A stretch of DNA of 64,000 nucleotides from Veillonella sp. 3310 (GTDB lineage Bacteria > Bacillota > Negativicutes > Veillonellales > Veillonellaceae). The stretch is taken from contig NZ_RQVJ01000001.1 in assembly GCF_003999875.1 (NCBI RefSeq), forward strand, positions 372,001-436,000, written 5' to 3'. The notes beneath the pieces were generated by a model, which worked only from the letters and a program-made list of their open reading frames with translations, was not told where the DNA came from and searched no databases. Position numbers and translations under genes: made by a program. Shown piece by piece: positions 35,478 through 45,951 of this stretch. How positions within the stretch are numbered: position 1 is the stretch's first letter; every line of letters begins with the position of its first letter.

Positions 35478-36827
35478 CTACTTCATCATGCCAAAATACT
35501 GTATAATTTTGTCATTTATCAAAGTATACACCAGTTTTAATTGTTGTTTTGGAATATTCATGTATTTTTCCATCATAGAACGCATATTAGCTAAGATTTC
35601 TTGGCAGTCTTTACCTTCACTAGCTTCACGTATATCCTCTTGTGTAATAGTAGCAATTTCGTGCGCTACTATATTTCTAACATTCTTTAAAATCGGGGTA
35701 AATATTTTTAGACTATTCACTAAATCAGATCTAGTATAGGAATGAAACTGTATCATATTAAGCATATGAAAAAAGGATAGTTCAAAATCTTTAGTTTCAT
35801 AATTTAACTGATTCATAGAACATTCCCAGGACTTATATAGATCAGGATATACTTTAGATAGTTTGATATGATCTACCATCCCTCTACGACCTCTAACCTC
35901 AATGTTTCTAAAATTAACTCCATATATATCTTTAAGAATACATTTCATAAATTGAAATAAGTAAGGAGTCAATTTCACTATAAAATCTTGATACATCCCT
36001 TTTTCAATACGAATTTGTGCAATATATAAATATTCAATTAAATTTCTAATCTCCACTTTTGAAGAAGGTATAAAGTGTGTAATACTTTGTTTCAATTCTT
36101 TAGGTATATAGGTCAGAGATTTATCATACTCGAAAGCACTTCGATACATACTATGTTGTAATAGCTTACCTATTACATCGAGATATTCCTTATCCTGCTC
36201 CTCAGCTAGTATCTTATATTCTTTGAATACCTGGATCGCTTGTTTATATTCATAAGCTTTTACTAATGATATACATCGTTCTTTTAAAAAACGTCGTTTG
36301 ATGATTTTTAAAACTGGTTCATGACAGCGATTAATTGTCCCTAGTTCATTATCAAAGTTACATTCTATCACATAATCAATATCTTCATTACCTTGTAAGG
36401 CATGTTCTGTTCTATTGGAACGCTCAGTAGGTGTATCAACCTGAACCCCAATTGTATCTAAATTTTCAATCGCAATGTATGTGAGTAACTGACACATTTG
36501 TGGTGTTCCAGATGTTAAGTTGATTAAAAACTCAGCCTCTGAAAACTCATCTTTCAATTTATAGAATTCCTCTACTAAACTATACAATGTATCAATTTTG
36601 TGAACTTCTTGAAGTTCTGTTTTGATTAACCTTACCTCACACTGTGGATTTACATACAAAATCGCTTTTGTATATTGCTGATTACGCTCTTCCTCATCCA
36701 CCATTTCTTTTGATAGAAATAAAACGGCCATGTCTGGTTTATAATGACGAATGATATGTAACATTGCTCCATCATAACAGCCACGAATAGGATCTGTAGT
36801 TCCTATTGCAGAATATAATATTTTCAT
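35478..36827 (-). CDS. csm6: CRISPR type III-A ancillary RNase Csm6
   Basis: 449 residues. N-terminal CARF domain (about 1-170): KILYSAIGTTDPIRG, and LINLTSGTPQM at 102-111, the ligand-sensing loop for cyclic oligoadenylate. C-terminal HEPN domain with the catalytic R-x4-H, R384 and H389 in VRNIVAHE. Csm6 is an RNase activated by the second messenger made by Csm1/Cas10. The ATG overlaps the cas6 stop by 4 bases (ATGA). Order cas6-csm6 is the reverse of the Staphylococcus epidermidis operon. Confidence 0.92.
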   Translation of the reverse strand: MKILYSAIGTTDPIRGCYDGAMLHIIRHYKPDMAVLFLSKEMVDEEERNQQYTKAILYVNPQCEVRLIKTELQEVHKIDTLYSLVEEFYKLKDEFSEAEFLINLTSGTPQMCQLLTYIAIENLDTIGVQVDTPTERSNRTEHALQGNEDIDYVIECNFDNELGTINRCHEPVLKIIKRRFLKERCISLVKAYEYKQAIQVFKEYKILAEEQDKEYLDVIGKLLQHSMYRSAFEYDKSLTYIPKELKQSITHFIPSSKVEIRNLIEYLYIAQIRIEKGMYQDFIVKLTPYLFQFMKCILKDIYGVNFRNIEVRGRRGMVDHIKLSKVYPDLYKSWECSMNQLNYETKDFELSFFHMLNMIQFHSYTRSDLVNSLKIFTPILKNVRNIVAHEIATITQEDIREASEGKDCQEILANMRSMMEKYMNIPKQQLKLVYTLINDKIIQYFGMMK

Positions 36828-37606
36828 AATACACGCTTCACTTCTTCTAACTCTATATCCAACGCTCCCATACCGACAGCTACCTTAATTCCACAACCAC
36901 ATAAGGAGCCATAATAACATAGCATCGCGGCTAAATTAGACAAAATCATATTTCGTTTACAAATCAATATATAGTTTCCTTGAAAGCCTGGAATTTTAGT
37001 TTGTTCCAAATAAAACTTTTGTAATCGCATACGATAGTCCGCTACATATATGTTATCACACAGAGCTTGAAATAACTCTTCGTCATCATATACATCTGAA
37101 GTACTGAACGCATTCCATTTTTTTAGAAAACTTCTCATGATTCTTTCAATATTGGGAAAGATCTCATAAGCTTGATTTACCTTAAATGAAGTTGGTGTTA
37201 CAAATGTAATATCTACTTTTTTATATTGCTTAGTGTCACCTAAAAATGATTGGGCTATACTGGCATAATCTGTTTCTAATACAACGCGTCTATCATCTAT
37301 GATTAAACTCCCATTTTTTTGTATGAGCTCTATAGTAGAAGATACATCCCATAATGGCGCAATCAACTTCTGTATACTCTCTTCTGATAAAGCAGTAATT
37401 CTCCATACACTAGTATTACGCTCTTTATCATAGTACACATATTGGTGATATGGTGGTATCTGTGTAGTATGTAAAAATGTAGCATATTCTGTAGAGATAT
37501 ATGACATAATCACACCATGTAACACACTTCCTAATGATTGAGCAATTTTCTGCCCATTATCTAAGTGAATATCAAATTCTATGCCTTTAATTTCAACCGT
37601 TTTCAA
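36824..37606 (-). CDS. cas6: CRISPR repeat endoribonuclease Cas6
   Basis: 260 residues with a RAMP fold. An N-terminal ferredoxin-like region has YISTEYATFLHTTQIPPYHQY with candidate catalytic histidine H46 or H53, and the C-terminus has the glycine-rich loop region (KIPGFQGNYILICK, then GCGIKVAVGMGAL). It cuts the repeat eight bases before each spacer to give the 5' tag. The start is TTG at 37606; the ribosome site is weak, so coupling to csm5 (14-base overlap) is likely. Confidence 0.9.
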   Translation of the reverse strand: MKTVEIKGIEFDIHLDNGQKIAQSLGSVLHGVIMSYISTEYATFLHTTQIPPYHQYVYYDKERNTSVWRITALSEESIQKLIAPLWDVSSTIELIQKNGSLIIDDRRVVLETDYASIAQSFLGDTKQYKKVDITFVTPTSFKVNQAYEIFPNIERIMRSFLKKWNAFSTSDVYDDEELFQALCDNIYVADYRMRLQKFYLEQTKIPGFQGNYILICKRNMILSNLAAMLCYYGSLCGCGIKVAVGMGALDIELEEVKRVL

Positions 37607-38747
37607 GATGTAACTTCACGCCTCCAAATATATAATCTTTTCCTTTATACTTCGTTAGCTTTAACGTTCGAGGGGAAATGATTCGATCCCTACGATGTCC
37701 ATTACCTAAAATTGATTTTACCACATTAACTTCATATCTATGATCATCAAACAAAGGTATGAGTAATGTTTTGTGTAAAAATCCAATACTATTTCCTATT
37801 AGACAAGTAACACTTTCTAAATCGTGTATACATGATTGTTCAATATCTCCTCTAAAAACTTGCTTCCATCGACTTAATAATCGTTGCGTATGCATTTCAA
37901 CAATTTTCACTAATTCAGTTACGGAGTGTATTCCTACTTTTCGTAATTCCTGAATATTAACACTCAACATACCTTCTAACTTTGTATTTGGCGTAATACA
38001 CTCTCTATATAAAGATAACGTATTTCTTTTATATTGTCCTGCTACAGAATCATATCTAGGTAAAATATACGTAGTCATTTTATCCTTTGATGATAAAATA
38101 ACATCTGATACTGAAATACTATGAAATAGCTTTTTTGCACCATCGTTATGCCATTTTCCTGTAGATTCTTTTATACAAGATAGTATTAAGATATCCAAAG
38201 CTTTTCCATACTCTCTTATACATCTACGAAGTTCTCTATCATTATTTGAGGCATCTATAAGTTTTTTCTGCCATTCGCGACGAAATACTTCATTATTTTC
38301 TACTATATAAGCTATCACAGCAGAAATAATAACTCCCTTTAAGGAACTACCTGGAATATACGGCATTCCATCAAGATCAGTCATACATAAGTTTACATTA
38401 TTCAATGATCGCTTAAATATAGAACTTTTAACACAACGCAATTGGCGTTTTGAAACACTAGATAACACGGTATCATTGGGAATACCGATAGTCCGTGCCA
38501 TCCATTCATAGATAGTTTCTTTTGTATATCCTGATGTATAACTTTTAATATATGCTTCATAGTCAGCAAGTTTATGTAACGAATATAGATATTGAAACCA
38601 TTTTTTCTGATTTAAAATATATACCTCTTGATTGGAAGCATCCAAAATATAGTCAAGCACTTTTGCTACTTGTCCATTTCCAATAGAAACTGGTGTGATT
38701 ACTTCTAATGTAAATGGGATTGTAATCGGCATGGATTCACTACTCAT
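37593..38747 (-). CDS. csm5: Type III-A RAMP protein Csm5
   Basis: 384 residues, from ATG 38747 (GGTG upstream). A Cas7-like head protein of the Csm complex: TLEVITPVSIGNG at the start and PYIPGSSLKGVIISAV, the G-x-S-x-L-K-G motif. It caps the crRNA-binding backbone at the 3' end. It overlaps csm4 by 8 bases. Confidence 0.9.
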   Translation of the reverse strand: MSSESMPITIPFTLEVITPVSIGNGQVAKVLDYILDASNQEVYILNQKKWFQYLYSLHKLADYEAYIKSYTSGYTKETIYEWMARTIGIPNDTVLSSVSKRQLRCVKSSIFKRSLNNVNLCMTDLDGMPYIPGSSLKGVIISAVIAYIVENNEVFRREWQKKLIDASNNDRELRRCIREYGKALDILILSCIKESTGKWHNDGAKKLFHSISVSDVILSSKDKMTTYILPRYDSVAGQYKRNTLSLYRECITPNTKLEGMLSVNIQELRKVGIHSVTELVKIVEMHTQRLLSRWKQVFRGDIEQSCIHDLESVTCLIGNSIGFLHKTLLIPLFDDHRYEVNVVKSILGNGHRRDRIISPRTLKLTKYKGKDYIFGGVKLHLENG

Positions 38748-39738
38748 CAATATTCACCCCCAGCCAAAATCCTTTCATATATTTATAAATTGGATGTGAG
38801 ATTTGATCATGACATAGTTCTATCACTTGTCCCTCTAGTTGTATAGGCATACAACTTCCTTCTTGCAAGGCATAAAAAGAATTTCGTTTATACGGGGCTT
38901 CTATAGATTCACTATATACAAATCCACTTCTCCTCATCAATTTATACGAACCTTGACTCAGTGTTTCAATTTCATCCAACTTAGGTGTAATTGCACTAAG
39001 AGACATATATGTAGACCCTTCTTGATGTAACAAATGATATAATGCCGCATCATCTTCACCACATAAAGGTAATTCGTCTAACTCGAACTCATCCTCTAAT
39101 ATAAATTGTCCATAACCAGAACTCCGTTTTCCACCGATTCCTGTATAACTTAAGGATTCAAAAATTGTTCTAACTCTTTCTATATCCGCTTCATTTTTGA
39201 CCCCAAGAATACAATATAGCCCTGTATCAGGCACGAACTTAAAAGTTCCTACTACATAAGGCTTACTGCTATCTTCTCGTAATGCTACTCTTTGAGATGT
39301 GAGGAACTGTCCAAAAATAGGTTCATCAGTTACTCCAGAAAGTGAGTACTGACCAAACTCATTATATAGATTAGATGCACGTACATAACCTATTTTCTTT
39401 ATTTTTTTCTGTTGTTTTACTTGTTCTTGTAATATTGAAATATTAGTAATGGTATCATACTTTCTATGTCCCACATAAATTGGACGTGGTACAAATAACT
39501 CTAACTCTTGACTTAGATTTTTAAATGGAAAAAGACTTGAAATTTTTATATACCCCAATCGTAAGGACTCCAGAAACCACTCTACTTCTGCTCGATTATA
39601 GCCAATTTCATTCACACAAGCAGACACAAATGTATCTGATGATATTGTGAGTTGCACTTTGTCTAGCGAACCGCCTTCGCTCGTATTCCCAAAATGTACT
39701 GAACTGGTGAATGTAAATGGAAAGATATAATATCTCAT
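38740..39738 (-). CDS. csm4: Type III-A RAMP protein Csm4
   Basis: 332 residues with Cas5-like topology: FTFTSSVHFGN, then a C-terminal GIGGKRSSGYGQF, the glycine-rich RAMP loop. Csm4 binds the crRNA 5' tag and contacts Csm1. AAGGTGATG precedes the ATG; 9 bases after csm3. Confidence 0.9.
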   Translation of the reverse strand: MRYYIFPFTFTSSVHFGNTSEGGSLDKVQLTISSDTFVSACVNEIGYNRAEVEWFLESLRLGYIKISSLFPFKNLSQELELFVPRPIYVGHRKYDTITNISILQEQVKQQKKIKKIGYVRASNLYNEFGQYSLSGVTDEPIFGQFLTSQRVALREDSSKPYVVGTFKFVPDTGLYCILGVKNEADIERVRTIFESLSYTGIGGKRSSGYGQFILEDEFELDELPLCGEDDAALYHLLHQEGSTYMSLSAITPKLDEIETLSQGSYKLMRRSGFVYSESIEAPYKRNSFYALQEGSCMPIQLEGQVIELCHDQISHPIYKYMKGFWLGVNIDE

Positions 39739-39747
39739 TACATCACC

Positions 39748-40428
39748 TTAACCTTGTAAATAAGCTTCACAACGTTCACTTAATTCAGAATCATCCGGGA
39801 AAGTTTTTACTGTAATATGTTCAATAGACACACGTCCATAACCTCGAGTACCATGCCCTCCAAGATAGTCTAGTTCCAATAAATTTAATCCAAAACGTAA
39901 CGTTTGCAAGTCTTCTTCAATCTCCGCTTCATCAATAACAGTATATACTAAGTGGAATCCAAATTTTGTTCCTGCTGGCACTCGCTCTATTTGTCTAGGA
40001 GTAGCTTTACAAGTATTACGTTTGATACTGTTTTCGAATTTTACTTCCCCCATATAAGTATCAGTTTCAATTGATTCAAATACACGTTTACTATTATCAG
40101 TTACAAATAAGTCCTGAAACTGTAAACGAGAGATAGTTTGAGGGCTTGTAGAGCCAAATAATCGTTTTATCACTTTATCATCATCATTTATGTCCTTTAC
40201 AAAATACGTTTCACTTCTAAAACGAGCCAATAAAATTCGAAGTTTCCCTTTTAAAGAACTACCAGGAATAATTGGCTCTTGTGTTAGTATATCTCTTACA
40301 AATGGACTATCTACTGACCCAATTGGAGCATAATCACTGCCTCCTCCTATATGCATTCCTGTTTTTATAAGTAATTCACCTCGAATGATAATTTTTTTTC
40401 GCAGTACATCTTTGGATCTTTCATTCAT
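39748..40428 (-). CDS. csm3: Type III-A backbone RNase Csm3
   Basis: 226 residues, Cas7 family. Key parts are GMHIGGGSDYAPIGSVDSP with the catalytic Asp D40 (the equivalent of D33 in Streptococcus thermophilus Csm3), IIPGSSLKGKLR and the C-terminal LGGHGTRGYGRV. Multiple copies coat the crRNA and cut target RNA every six bases. Three bases follow csm2. Confidence 0.95.
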   Translation of the reverse strand: MNERSKDVLRKKIIIRGELLIKTGMHIGGGSDYAPIGSVDSPFVRDILTQEPIIPGSSLKGKLRILLARFRSETYFVKDINDDDKVIKRLFGSTSPQTISRLQFQDLFVTDNSKRVFESIETDTYMGEVKFENSIKRNTCKATPRQIERVPAGTKFGFHLVYTVIDEAEIEEDLQTLRFGLNLLELDYLGGHGTRGYGRVSIEHITVKTFPDDSELSERCEAYLQG

Positions 40429-40430
40429 AA

Positions 40431-40907
40431 TTATCGTCCCCCTCCAGTGCTATTCACTCTATTAACTTTATTGTTGTCCTTTTTATCTCTTGATGATACT
40501 GCTGAGTAATATTTATGAAATGCAACTAACGCCTCAATATATTTACAATATTTATTAAACTCATTAATATCGCCTTGAATATTATCTAAACGGGGAATCA
40601 ACTCTGCCTTTTGAATAAAATCATCAACTGCATTAATCGTATTAGATTTTTCATTATTTTTTTCAATCTCACGACCAGCTTGATAACAGAAAAGTGTTTT
40701 AAGAAAGCGAATTTCCATTTGTAATTCTGGGGATATTGTTTTCACTTTTTCTTTACTTTTAGCTACTTCAACATTTACTTTATTTTTTACATCAGTAATA
40801 GCAGATAAAATTTTTCTAAGTTGACTAGTATTTAAGGCAATAACACCTTTATCTGTTCTTTTTAAATCCTTAATCACTGCTTCTGCTTCTGCTACATAAT
40901 CAACCAT
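40431..40907 (-). CDS. csm2: Type III-A small subunit Csm2
   Basis: 158 residues, all helical, lysine-rich, with LRKILSAITDVKNKV and MEIRFLKTLFCYQAGRE, typical for Csm2. It forms the inner belly of the complex. The C-terminus is extended with an Asn/Gly-rich tail. AGGAGG-like GGGAGG lies ahead of the ATG, and it overlaps csm1 by 8 bases. Confidence 0.88.
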   Translation of the reverse strand: MVDYVAEAEAVIKDLKRTDKGVIALNTSQLRKILSAITDVKNKVNVEVAKSKEKVKTISPELQMEIRFLKTLFCYQAGREIEKNNEKSNTINAVDDFIQKAELIPRLDNIQGDINEFNKYCKYIEALVAFHKYYSAVSSRDKKDNNKVNRVNSTGGGR

Positions 40908-43428
40908 GATATTCCTCCCTTTTACCTTTCTCCCGTAGACTATATATTACTATATGAATGGCTGTTAATAATTCTCTAGTCGATTCTTTATCCTTAGTGT
41001 GCTCATACATCATAGAAATAAACTTCTTATATGCCTCTAATTGTGCTTCACTAGCTTGCTCAGGTTCCATACGAGACAAAGTATATAACAGTCTAGCTCT
41101 ATGAATCGTCTCTAAATCATCTCCTATAATTTCTTCTAATAATTCCATAATTCTATACATGGCACTTCTTGTAAAGGTCATCTTCGATAAATCTGAAATG
41201 GGTCCTTCTTTAGATATTGCTAATATTGACTGCAACATATTAAACTTTTCACCTAGTACAGATTGTATAAATCGATCCCATGTATATACATGACGACACC
41301 GTGGAGCATTACCTTCATTCTCTGTATCAAATCCAAATAAAGCAATACTATCTTTTTCAGGCATATCCTTTGCAGTTGACTCTAAACTACCTGTTATCTC
41401 CGCCATTTTAGTGATAGGAAAGTTATGTGTAAACATTCCTAGACCAGCAGACATAGTAATTTTTCCACCTGTCAAATCTTTAAGCCTGTTGCGAATATCA
41501 ATAGCCACCTCAATCAGCTCATCCCAAGGGCCTACTAAAAAAACATCATCTCCACCAGAGTAGATAATATGAATATGACCCTTTTCACTAGTATCCTTAT
41601 TCCAAAGTCGATACGTATCTTTTACATCTTCAACACCACTAACATTGCCAGATACAATTTTATTAACACCTACTTTAAAAAACATGGATAAAGCTCTTGA
41701 TAAATCTGCATATCTTGAAAATGTATTAAAGTGATATGGATTTTCTTTGGTGTCACTTATAAAGCCACTAATAAAAGCCGCCCCTAGATTATCCACATCG
41801 GCTCTTAAGACCCCTAATCGCTGCATACCTACTTTTTCAGTTCCACTCATCTGAGCTAAGTCCTCAAATGTATATACTTCTCCATTGGGTTTACGACTAA
41901 CATAGTCTGCAATCCATAATCGACTTGCTACTTTACTTCCTGTTTCGGCTTCATTAATCACATATATATGTTTCCATGTAGCACTATATCCTAACTCTTC
42001 TAATTTGCGCTTTGATATAACATATAAATTTGTTGCATTACTACTGTAAATTGGAATAGATGGGATCATTTCTAATACTTCTTGCTCTTCTGCAATTCCT
42101 AATACCGATTCTTCAGATTGTACTAATACCTCTCCCAAATGATATAAAGAATCACACATATGACAAGCCAATGATTCCGTATACCCATAGATTTTCAATT
42201 CTACTGAAGATGTATGACAAATAGAACATTCCTTATCCCCTTCTCGTACAGAATTAATACTACTATTAGGGTTAAATAAGTCTTCTAAAATTTTTTTAGT
42301 ATATCTAAATATTTTACCTTTTGCGGTCTCTCGGCTAGCTTCACCAAATAGTTTATGCTGTTTTTCTCCATTAATTAAATCGTTCCCAGTGCATGTAGCC
42401 ATTCCTAGTGAGATATATAACTTTGTACCCACATGTTCAAGTAACCATTGATTCACTGCGGCTTCAAGAGCCCTGACAATCCCTTTGGCAGTTTCCGTGG
42501 CAGGCCCTAGTATATAGAAATGTCCTCCACCAGAATACAATACATTACATCGACTCAGCTGTAAGTCTTCTAACAAAGAATCAATTATAGATTCTAATAA
42601 TATCTCTAAATACACTGAGCGACCACGCAAGGATTTTAATGCACCTGTTGATGGCACTGTATAAATGAAATCTTGTATACCAGACACATCTCCAGAAATC
42701 ATCATAAAAGCTTCTTGTTCACGAAATACTTTTGAATCTGTAAAGCAATACTTTTTATAATCCTCTATGCCATTTTCTTGAAAATATAATTTCATAGATG
42801 TAGCAATGGCTGCTGTCAACTTAGAGTGCATGTACAAAGATATATCTGCTACTTCTTTTCTGTATGTACTAGAAGGAACAAAACTAGTAGTATCCTCATA
42901 AATCCGTAATAATTCATTAACCGTCATGGCATCTATACTTTGCACAGAAAAATTATCTTTCATTGTGTGATAGAGTATTTTATAGGTATCAGATGTGGCT
43001 AAAATATTTCCATCTTTCGGATAATTATAATTGCTAGCTACATTTAAACCTCGAAGATGATATTTTTGCTCAGTGTTCGAAATATTTCCACCAAATGTAT
43101 GAAATACAGATATTAACGGTATATTCTTGTCGAAGGTTTGTCCCTCCACCATAGTACCTTCATCAAACTCTCTACGGTCCAGGGCCGATGCAAGATTATC
43201 TGCTTCATACACCAAATAGGCTAAACTAGTGTCTGGAATTATGGCCTTAGACAATTGCTTTCCATGGTGATATTGAACACATCTCAATAACTCCTTATCC
43301 TCTGTATAAGAACGCAAAAAAGTAGCCCCCGCAATCGAATGATCTCCTAATCCTTCGTTAGCGCGATAGACTACTTTCCCAATATCATGTAATAAGGCAC
43401 CTTTTACCAATGTTTCTAAACACCCCAT
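40900..43428 (-). CDS. csm1: Type III-A signature protein Csm1/Cas10
   Basis: 842 residues from ATG 43428 (GAGGGAG six bases upstream); a longer TTG frame would run into cas2 and is unlikely. Domains in order: HD nuclease (H14-D15 in LLHDIGK), first palm with a degenerate SGGGHF, zinc cysteines C401/C404 and C422/C425, second palm/cyclase with GGDD at 625-628 (YSGGDDVFL), and an all-alpha end. It makes cyclic oligoadenylate when the complex binds foreign RNA and can cut DNA with its HD domain. Both active sites look intact. Confidence 0.95.
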   Translation of the reverse strand: MGCLETLVKGALLHDIGKVVYRANEGLGDHSIAGATFLRSYTEDKELLRCVQYHHGKQLSKAIIPDTSLAYLVYEADNLASALDRREFDEGTMVEGQTFDKNIPLISVFHTFGGNISNTEQKYHLRGLNVASNYNYPKDGNILATSDTYKILYHTMKDNFSVQSIDAMTVNELLRIYEDTTSFVPSSTYRKEVADISLYMHSKLTAAIATSMKLYFQENGIEDYKKYCFTDSKVFREQEAFMMISGDVSGIQDFIYTVPSTGALKSLRGRSVYLEILLESIIDSLLEDLQLSRCNVLYSGGGHFYILGPATETAKGIVRALEAAVNQWLLEHVGTKLYISLGMATCTGNDLINGEKQHKLFGEASRETAKGKIFRYTKKILEDLFNPNSSINSVREGDKECSICHTSSVELKIYGYTESLACHMCDSLYHLGEVLVQSEESVLGIAEEQEVLEMIPSIPIYSSNATNLYVISKRKLEELGYSATWKHIYVINEAETGSKVASRLWIADYVSRKPNGEVYTFEDLAQMSGTEKVGMQRLGVLRADVDNLGAAFISGFISDTKENPYHFNTFSRYADLSRALSMFFKVGVNKIVSGNVSGVEDVKDTYRLWNKDTSEKGHIHIIYSGGDDVFLVGPWDELIEVAIDIRNRLKDLTGGKITMSAGLGMFTHNFPITKMAEITGSLESTAKDMPEKDSIALFGFDTENEGNAPRCRHVYTWDRFIQSVLGEKFNMLQSILAISKEGPISDLSKMTFTRSAMYRIMELLEEIIGDDLETIHRARLLYTLSRMEPEQASEAQLEAYKKFISMMYEHTKDKESTRELLTAIHIVIYSLREKGKREEYHG

Positions 43429-43450
43429 GGTTTTCTCCCTCATGAATCCT

Positions 43451-43726
43451 TTATAATATGACACAATCTTGTTCTTTTCTTTCTCCAATTCCCCAAGTAT
43501 ATATCTTAACTAAATCATCAAGAATATATATTCGCAAAGAATCAATATTCGGATTAATTAAACGACTACATTGGCGAATCATAGCATCGTACTGTTTACG
43601 ATTTAACAATGCCTCAAACGCTGACTTTTGAACACGAACACCATATCGTTCCAAGCACTTCACCATTTTTAATCGTATCTTATTATCTACTATATCATAA
43701 ATAATCAAAACTATAAACTTTTTCAT
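43451..43726 (-). CDS. cas2: CRISPR adaptation protein Cas2
   Basis: 91 residues: strand FIVLIIYDIVDNKIR with the conserved aspartate, then RYGVRVQKSAFEALL and LRIYILDDLVKI. Cas2 is the structural dimer of the spacer-acquisition complex. A weak ribosome site (GAGTG) precedes the ATG. 37 bases separate it from cas1. Confidence 0.93.
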   Translation of the reverse strand: MKKFIVLIIYDIVDNKIRLKMVKCLERYGVRVQKSAFEALLNRKQYDAMIRQCSRLINPNIDSLRIYILDDLVKIYTWGIGERKEQDCVIL

Positions 43727-43763: not shown

Positions 43764-44759
43764 CTATCTTATCTCTAGTGGTGTATATCGCTCAAGATCT
43801 ATATTCATAATTGTTGATGCATAGGCTTTACATTGACTAAAAATAGATTCTCTAAATGTTTGTCCTCTATCCATATATTGATTCATGCTTTTTATCTTTT
43901 TATTATAGGCACTCAAAAATAGTTTTCTTCCTTCTCCATTTAAATAGCACCCTTCACCAGAATATTGAAAGTCTTCATCTACATCTATCATATTTCGTTT
44001 AACTAAATTAAGTACTAATGAATCAATTACGGGGGCTCTCCATTCTTCAATTAAATCAGATACTAAGGCTGGATGCCCACCCTTAATAGAATGCATGCAC
44101 CCTACAAAAGGATGTAATCCAGCATTAATAACTCCTGCCATAATTTCATTAAAGAGCATACTATACCCTAATCCTAACATAGCATTAAATGGATCTAATG
44201 GAGGCTGTTTGCTTCGTTTTGTAAAAGCAAATTCTGAAGGGACAATCTTGCCTAGCCCTTCAAAATATAAACGGCTAATAATTCCCTCATATCCCATCAA
44301 TTCTTCAATACTTACGGCTTTATGTATATTCTTACGGATATGACAAATGTTATTAATGGACATCATAACACTATCATCAACAAGATTCCTTTCATAGCGT
44401 CTCAATATAGTTAGCTGATTATTTATTTTAGCATTGATTAGCTTTTTGCTAAGTGTTAAACAGAACTCTTTATCTCCCCTTATAGTAAATTGTCTCTGAT
44501 GCTTATGAATATCTACAGTATTTGTATTAATCAAAGTACCGAAATATTTCCCATATCCTGATAGCCAGGTCACTGGAATACCATTAGATATAAAATCAGT
44601 CAATAATGATGATGAAATATGAACCGAGTCAAACACTGTTACATCATCAATAGACTCAAATGGTACTTCAAATAATACTTCATGATTCCTACCAACAATA
44701 ACATGCCCACCTTTTCGTTTAATAAACGAGCCTGATTCTGTCACATATAAAGTCGTCAT
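43764..44759 (-). CDS. cas1: CRISPR integrase Cas1
   Basis: 331 residues from ATG 44759, which has GGGAGG eight bases upstream; the longer frame to 44897 would start inside a CRISPR repeat. Motifs: TTLYVTESGSFIKRKGGHVIV, YEGIISRLYFEG with the metal-binding glutamate, GLHPFVGCMH with the histidine, and SDLIEEWRAPVID with the acidic pair. It inserts new spacers with Cas2. The upstream region (44760-44884) has two TATAAT hexamers (44791-44796 and 44811-44816 on the minus strand) without good -35 partners. Confidence 0.95.
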   Translation of the reverse strand: MTTLYVTESGSFIKRKGGHVIVGRNHEVLFEVPFESIDDVTVFDSVHISSSLLTDFISNGIPVTWLSGYGKYFGTLINTNTVDIHKHQRQFTIRGDKEFCLTLSKKLINAKINNQLTILRRYERNLVDDSVMMSINNICHIRKNIHKAVSIEELMGYEGIISRLYFEGLGKIVPSEFAFTKRSKQPPLDPFNAMLGLGYSMLFNEIMAGVINAGLHPFVGCMHSIKGGHPALVSDLIEEWRAPVIDSLVLNLVKRNMIDVDEDFQYSGEGCYLNGEGRKLFLSAYNKKIKSMNQYMDRGQTFRESIFSQCKAYASTIMNIDLERYTPLEIR

Positions 44760-44884
44760 ACAAATGCCTCCCTTATCATACATAACTATTATTATACTCT
44801 CCGATCCCATATTATAGGACGTAAAGAACGCGGTGCATTGTTTACGCGTAGGATTAGGTACTACAATCTTAAGTTTTTTACCGA

Positions 44885-45760
44885 GTTCCGCCCCCATACT
44901 GGAGATTATGTTTTTATCGCGTGAATGACTTCAACGATGATTTAGGTAACGACTTAGACGACGAGTTTCCGTCCCCCATATTGGGGATTATTTTTTATCA
45001 TGTTGATTTATTAGTACTCGATGATTTGGGTTTGGAATATGAGTTTCCGTCCCCGTACTGGGGATTATTTTTTTATCACAATGCGAAATGACATACTGCA
45101 AGAGCATACCAGCGTTTCCGTCCCCGTATTGGGGATTATTTTTTTATCTGGACAAACAAATCGCTGAAATGTCTAATGAGAGTTTCGTGTTTCCGTCCCC
45201 GTACTGGGGATTATTTTTTTATCGGACTTTGGAAAACAATACATTAATAGTTTCCGTTTTGAAACGTTTCCGTCCCCGTACTGGGGATTATTTTTTTATC
45301 AATAGGAGAGGATTAATGAAAGAACAAACGCATGATGCAGGTTTCCGTCCCCGTACTGGGGATTATTTTTTTATCCTTTACTTATAAGTTAAGAAAGGAG
45401 TAATTTATGGACGAAGTCGTTTCCGTCCCCGTACTGGGGATTATTTTTTTATCTTGAAGAAACGATTAAAAGTATGCTTGACATGTTATAAGTTAGTTTC
45501 CGTCCCCGTACTGGGGATTATTTTTTTATCAAACAAGACATTCAAGAAGGTTTAGCAGAAGATTATTTTGTGGTTTCCGTCCCCGTACTGGGGATTATTT
45601 TTTTATCTATCATGTGTGTTATTGCAGTTTATAAAAAAGGTTTTGAATTGTTTCCGTCCCCGTACTGGGGATTATTTTTTTATCATTTTAACCATGGCAA
45701 AAGTATCAACAGGTGTAGTTAGATTGTTTCCGTCCCCGTACTGGGGATTATTTTTTTATC
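44885..45760 (-). CRISPR. Type III-A CRISPR array, 12 repeats and 11 spacers
   Basis: Repeats of 35 bp start at 44965, 45043, 45114, 45189, 45266, 45341, 45419, 45496, 45573, 45650 and 45726; a degenerate 34-bp one is at 44885-44918. On the plus strand each starts GTTTCCGTCCCC and ends in a T-run plus ATC, with a CCCC-GTACT-GGGG hairpin. Read on the minus strand it starts GATA and ends GGGGACGGAAAC, the type III-A form, so the crRNA tag is ACGGAAAC. Spacers are 36-46 bp. Repeats at 44885 and 44965 (and slightly 45114) are mutated, marking the leader-distal, cas1-proximal end. Transcription is leftward, like the cas genes. Confidence 0.97.
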
Positions 45761-45951
45761 CCTACCCTCTATAGTTATGATAACTAGTGCGTTTAAACTA
45801 TGGTTATCGGCGGAGTCTTTATAAAGATACTTTTAACTTCAAGAAGACTCTCAAAAACTGTCATTCAAGCCTATTCTTATCACATCGGTGGAGATTTGTA
45901 TCTAACACAAGAATACCATATATATAGAATAAATTGCAAATTTCAAGCAAT
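45761..45951 (-). promoter_or_regulatory. CRISPR leader with palindromes
   Basis: AT-rich DNA on the conserved-repeat side of the array, in the right place for the leader. It contains TAGTTAT-G-ATAACTA (45772-45786), 11 bp from the first repeat, and the 12-bp perfect palindrome TCTTTATAAAGA (45816-45827). A minus-strand promoter candidate is TTGAAA, 17 bp, ATATAT in 45915-45945. These may be binding sites for adaptation factors or transcription regulators; inferred. Confidence 0.6.

Follow-up and report, generated by a model that had tools for sequence, protein, structure and literature searches.

Spacers of a Veillonella type III-A CRISPR array, and of its relatives, are almost uniformly antisense to phage messages

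Natural type III CRISPR spacers match the coding strand of their targets, so that the crRNA can pair with the mRNA; the published coding-strand mean is about 65%, with 88% in Moraxella III-B (Vink et al. 2021, PMC8482600). For the type III systems of Thermus thermophilus, which lack a reverse transcriptase (RT), experiments have shown that both strands supply spacers and that, under selection by phage, those that are antisense and directed at early genes remain (Artamonova et al. 2020, PMC7515739). A natural III-A array of Staphylococcus aureus has 6 of 7 protospacers in ORFs, all six complementary to the mRNA, and the seventh spans a bidirectional promoter (PMC10434264). Given that the strand bias of type III arrays and its origin in selection have been published, the bias itself is not new. 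The array described here resembles that of S. aureus in that its ORF protospacers are all complementary to mRNA, in a different organism. It shares with Thermus thermophilus a conventional Cas1, a strong antisense bias and early-gene targets, but the host is another one, and the Thermus spacers were measured during infection whereas ours come from standing arrays. The type III systems of Marinomonas mediterranea and Vibrio are likewise transcript-directed, but they carry RT-Cas1 and acquire spacers in either orientation, whereas the Veillonella genome is without an RT. What is new is the family (Veillonellaceae), the near completeness of the bias, and a strand test that has no need of matched targets.

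The window, by which we mean the whole analysed stretch of 64,000 nucleotides, comes from Veillonella, and its Cas1 is 90% identical to that of Veillonella sp. VA139. Directly downstream of the array, the minus strand encodes a complete type III-A operon in the order cas1 (43764–44897), cas2 (43451–43726), cas10/csm1 (40900–43488), csm2 (40431–40907), csm3 (39748–40428), csm4 (38740–39738), csm5 (37593–38750), cas6 (36824–37606) and csm6 (35478–36827). Cas10/Csm1 possesses the HD (H34-D35) and GGDD (645) motifs and matches the profiles PF18211 (1.3e-35) and Cas10a (2.3e-216). Csm6 combines CARF and HEPN domains (PF22208 and PF09659), with an R-X4-H motif at 384. Together with Csm2–Csm5, these features assign the system to type III-A (Csm). 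Cas1 has no RT domain, the 99.9%-complete genome yielded no RVT_1 match at E<=0.001, and a type I Cas7 is absent from the genome. Accordingly, acquisition from RNA and borrowing from a type I system are both unlikely. In VA139, two csm-linked arrays with homologous leaders are accompanied by a duplicated cas1, of which one copy is apparently broken (L058:8800-17550).

The array (44884–45760, minus strand) consists of 12 repeats of 35 nt and 11 spacers of 36–46 nt, in agreement with the coordinates and repeats claimed from the sequence alone. In the crRNA sense the repeat is GATAAAAAAATAATCCCCAGTACGGGGACGGAAAC, and the minus-strand repeat has GGGGACGGAAAC as its end. Repeat degeneration is found at the low-coordinate end, where the first repeat (44884–44918) is degenerate. 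Past the high-coordinate end, a segment at 45761 to about 46000 (minus strand) shows about 91% column identity to the sequences beside both csm-linked VA139 arrays. The decay at one end and the conserved sequence at the other place the leader at the high-coordinate end; the oldest spacers are thus those of low coordinate, and spacer 11 is the newest. A −35/−10-like site, recognized by consensus match, lies just upstream of the leader (46044–46016). Leader position, repeat end and repeat decay indicate that the crRNA is read from the minus strand, so that the plus strand of each spacer corresponds to the target sense. The csm operon is encoded on the same strand as the crRNA, and the four lines of evidence agree with the minus-strand reading proposed earlier. 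A search of Rfam returned no CRISPR repeat family for the array. On the plus strand, every repeat resembles a terminator, a hairpin with a T-run after it (45049–45748; 12 sites against 1.2 expected), and antisense transcription across the array would therefore tend to stop.

We searched the array against 61 genomes of the order and mapped the spacers onto the fetched loci, taking the sense from the longest ORF under each match. Related protospacers were found for 8 of the 11 spacers (1, 2, 3, 4, 7, 9, 10 and 11), within prophages of Veillonella or within an integrated mobile element. Most of them are homologous rather than identical to the spacer, and thus belong to relatives of the true target phages. 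In all eight, the coding strand corresponds to the plus strand of the spacer (0.4% one-sided by chance). Spacer 1 (44919–44964) matches the 3′ end of a phage ssDNA-binding protein gene (35/46; G002:C4 prophage, L057), and spacer 11 (45685–45725) matches the start codon of the same gene (32/41, L057); a single gene is thus matched at its end by the oldest spacer and at its start by the newest. Spacer 2 (45000–45042) is identical over 43/43 positions to a DnaC-like helicase loader gene in the integrated mobile element (G005:C7, L050). Spacer 3 (45078–45113) matches the start codon region of an ORF in L055, which reads AAGGAGTGGAACAATG in the target (29/36). The target of spacer 4 (45149–45188; 36/40, L054) is a 222-aa prophage ORF next to ribonucleotide reductase (RNR); despite this position, PHROGs assigns it to tail fibre proteins. 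Three adjacent genes in a second prophage (L053) are matched by spacer 7 (45376–45418), at the RBS and start of a 75-aa ORF (29/43), spacer 9 (45531–45572), in an amidoligase-like gene (25-nt core at 96%), and spacer 10 (45608–45649), at the start of the MCVI-VYKKGF gene (32/42). For the remaining spacers, no protospacer was found in these loci for spacer 6 (45301–45340) or spacer 8 (45454–45495), the plus strand of the latter being sense by composition, and spacer 5 (45224–45265) has no convincing one; its 26-nt marginal match to the host's own chromosome is at chance level. All spacers are read on the minus strand. In all eight protospacers, the mapped 3′ flank matches the anti-tag GTTTCCGT at 0–3 of 8 positions, a low pairing that corresponds to nonself for a type III system.

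Comparison of the array with 50,697 phage records gave chance-level matches only, the arrays of two relatives had no match in the phage records, and the exact 23-nt pattern of spacer 11 did not occur in viral contigs. IMG/VR scans with three of the target proteins recovered the same VA139 prophages and one distant locus.

The proposal that the spacers are antisense to phage messages thus holds for every mapped spacer, with no sign of protospacers in equal numbers on both strands, and it extends beyond one array. Related arrays were taken from across the order and then checked for csm linkage. The fractions below refer to csm-linked arrays, some arrays with type III-like repeats but no visible csm linkage being left out; G040 was counted as linked, its draft genome having the csm genes and the array on separate contigs. 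Strand was called by a strand-symmetric, 3-periodic Markov model, which called 83% of held-out sense phage fragments sense, and which gives the strand bias even for spacers whose targets are unknown. In the csm-linked arrays of the Veillonellaceae (f1), 93 of 114 calls were sense, from which the antisense-to-mRNA fraction is estimated at 0.99 (0.90–1.00), a value that fits better than 0.65 by 16.4 log-likelihood units; compared with the published survey (PMC8482600), this estimate includes spacers without matches. Beyond the present array, 103 csm-linked spacers in 8 family arrays show the same sense bias. The coding-strand excess over 50% is therefore present in both the array and the family. 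The csm-linked arrays of two further families (f2/f3) gave 0.89 (0.77–0.99), and the type I-C arrays of f2/f3 gave 0.39 (0.26–0.53), with no such bias. Type III is not alone in showing the bias, since the type I-C arrays of genus g4 (L146, L150 and L151), unlike type I-C in the other families, show a coding-strand bias with 56 of 82 sense calls.

All-against-all mapping of the type III arrays gave 15 other-genome matches at E<1e-4, and these, like 5 weaker matches, are sense by the longest ORF that they cover. Two matches depart from this pattern, the marginal one of spacer 5 to its own chromosome and a second one of a G011 spacer in a region poor in ORFs. An RBS-ATG motif occurs 11 times on the target strand and never on the crRNA strand of the 114 csm-linked family spacers. 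In its strict form, it occurs 26 times against 3 among 329 spacers of type III-like arrays, and 9 times against 8 among 336 type I-C spacers.

Start codons and open frames had been part of the original argument. The RBS and ATG noted in spacers 6 (AGGAGAGGATTAATG) and 7 (AAAGGAGTAATTTATG) are both present on the plus strand, so that this argument is real. For spacer 11, the ATG is confirmed as a start codon by the homologous protospacer, but its open frame has no weight as evidence, and neither does the statement that most other spacers have one, because 15 open frames lie on the plus strands and 16 on the minus strands. Homologous protospacers revealed further start codons in spacers 3, 10 and 11, and the targets of spacers 3, 7, 10 and 11 have a start codon with a visible RBS. 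In total, a start codon is present in 5 of the 11 spacers, the rate for random sense fragments being 7.6% (p=0.0008 in a post hoc comparison). In the other type III-like family arrays the RBS-ATG motif was observed in 12 of 131 spacers, with 9.3 expected. Since these arrays are at the level of random fragments, we treat the excess in the present array as chance. A general enrichment of start codons or RBS was likewise rejected (7.7% of 310 spacers against 7.1% of random sense phage fragments).

Which genes are matched bears on the origin of the bias. By a rough estimate, terminase–head–tail modules make up about 45% of the two VA139 prophages, yet none of the array's six protospacers lying in these prophages falls in a structural module. 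The protospacers of VA139's own array A in the same two prophages also avoid the terminase-to-tail modules. The prophage genes matched are those for the ssDNA-binding protein and the amidoligase-like protein, and ORFs near helicase and RNR genes. This sparing of structural modules agrees with selection for working, early-acting spacers; the PHROGs tail fibre call for the target of spacer 4 counts on the other side.

Taken together, the locus is very probably an ordinary, apparently intact type III-A system with an array that selection has filtered. In this putative model, minus-strand transcription from the leader would give a pre-crRNA, which Cas6 would cut into crRNAs complementary to phage and mobile-element mRNAs. 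Pairing of the presumably active Csm complex with a transcript would lead to RNA cleavage and activate both the Cas10 DNase arm and the cyclic-oligoadenylate/Csm6 arm. Protection would come only from spacers whose crRNA is antisense to the transcript, and clones with the other orientation would be lost; acquisition would itself be strand-neutral, the sorting being left to selection. The sequence-only reading had offered selection or directional acquisition as alternatives, of which selection is the better supported, given the missing RT, the spared structural modules and the RT-less Thermus precedent. A standing type III-A array can be nearly free of useless spacers. With at most about 10% of spacers in the wrong orientation, neutral fixations would amount to at most about 20%, which bounds hitchhiking.

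One observation does not follow from selection of its own accord. Neutral acquisition with hitchhiking would predict some unselected spacers near the leader, but no such tail is visible: the three leader-proximal spacers per array give a fraction of 1.00 (0.85–1.00, n=27), a bias equal to that of the rest. With rare acquisition and a phage sweep fixing every new spacer, this would be expected; failing that, it is a hint of directional acquisition, in which Cas1–Cas2 would capture or insert prespacers in a fixed orientation to transcription and without reverse transcription, for example from ssDNA in transcription bubbles, such that new spacers are antisense prior to any selection. Such a mechanism accords with a bias that is near complete from the leader onward, needs no RT, and could draw on the start-codon regions of the present array, an excess chosen after the fact. 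We nevertheless consider it improbable. Start-region motifs are not enriched across the family, and Thermus has no built-in preference for a strand (PMC7515739). A review reports that in the III-A system of S. thermophilus naive uptake concentrates near start codons on the encoding strand, a pattern described as being of no direct defensive use (PMC9048733). Furthermore, a transcription-driven source should prefer the strongly expressed late structural genes, none of which is matched. The family-wide version, in which Veillonellaceae type III-A systems orient to transcription independently of RT and nearly all spacers are antisense at acquisition, is marginally more doubtful still. If true, it would account for newest spacers as biased as the oldest, and an RT-independent bias set during uptake would represent a new mechanism of adaptation.

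In the spacers, the plus strand is rich in purines (G 0.22 against C 0.12), and one might suppose that purine-rich sequence, rather than the coding strand, was chosen. This highly unlikely reading is refuted by the mapped protospacers, which sit on the coding strand of genuine genes and keep RBS and start codons in register. None was seen in a purine-rich tract between genes or on the template strand, and the type I-C spacers of f2/f3, from the same order, lack the signal. Derivation of spacers from RNA by an RT acting in trans, familiar from type III RT-Cas1 systems (PMC9048733), is already largely refuted and has even less to commend it, given a Cas1 and a genome devoid of RT and the report that RT-type systems show no strand bias on most genes (PMC9048733). 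Chance among 11 spacers, to which the equal richness of both strands in open frames might lend some colour, is negligible in view of the eight concordant mapped spacers and the 103 others.

Several sites recur among the targets. The start of the MCVI-VYKKGF gene (L053:8752-9783; L066:11758-11785; L058 array A) is matched by spacer 10 and by a VA139 spacer with which it overlaps; a G014 spacer from another array type has 28 nt in common with spacer 10; this gene start is one site targeted repeatedly and independently. The integrated element (L050, L051), with relaxase-like, replisome-organiser-like, DnaC-like and integrase-like genes, is matched by spacers from the arrays of three genomes. Within the prophage region of VA139 contig 4 (L057:14700-15150) there is a phage-borne array, a mini-CRISPR of about 7 repeats, whose repeat TTTAGAATTACTTCCCCATTGCGGGGACGGAAAC differs little from the one in a chromosomal L059 array (45-985).
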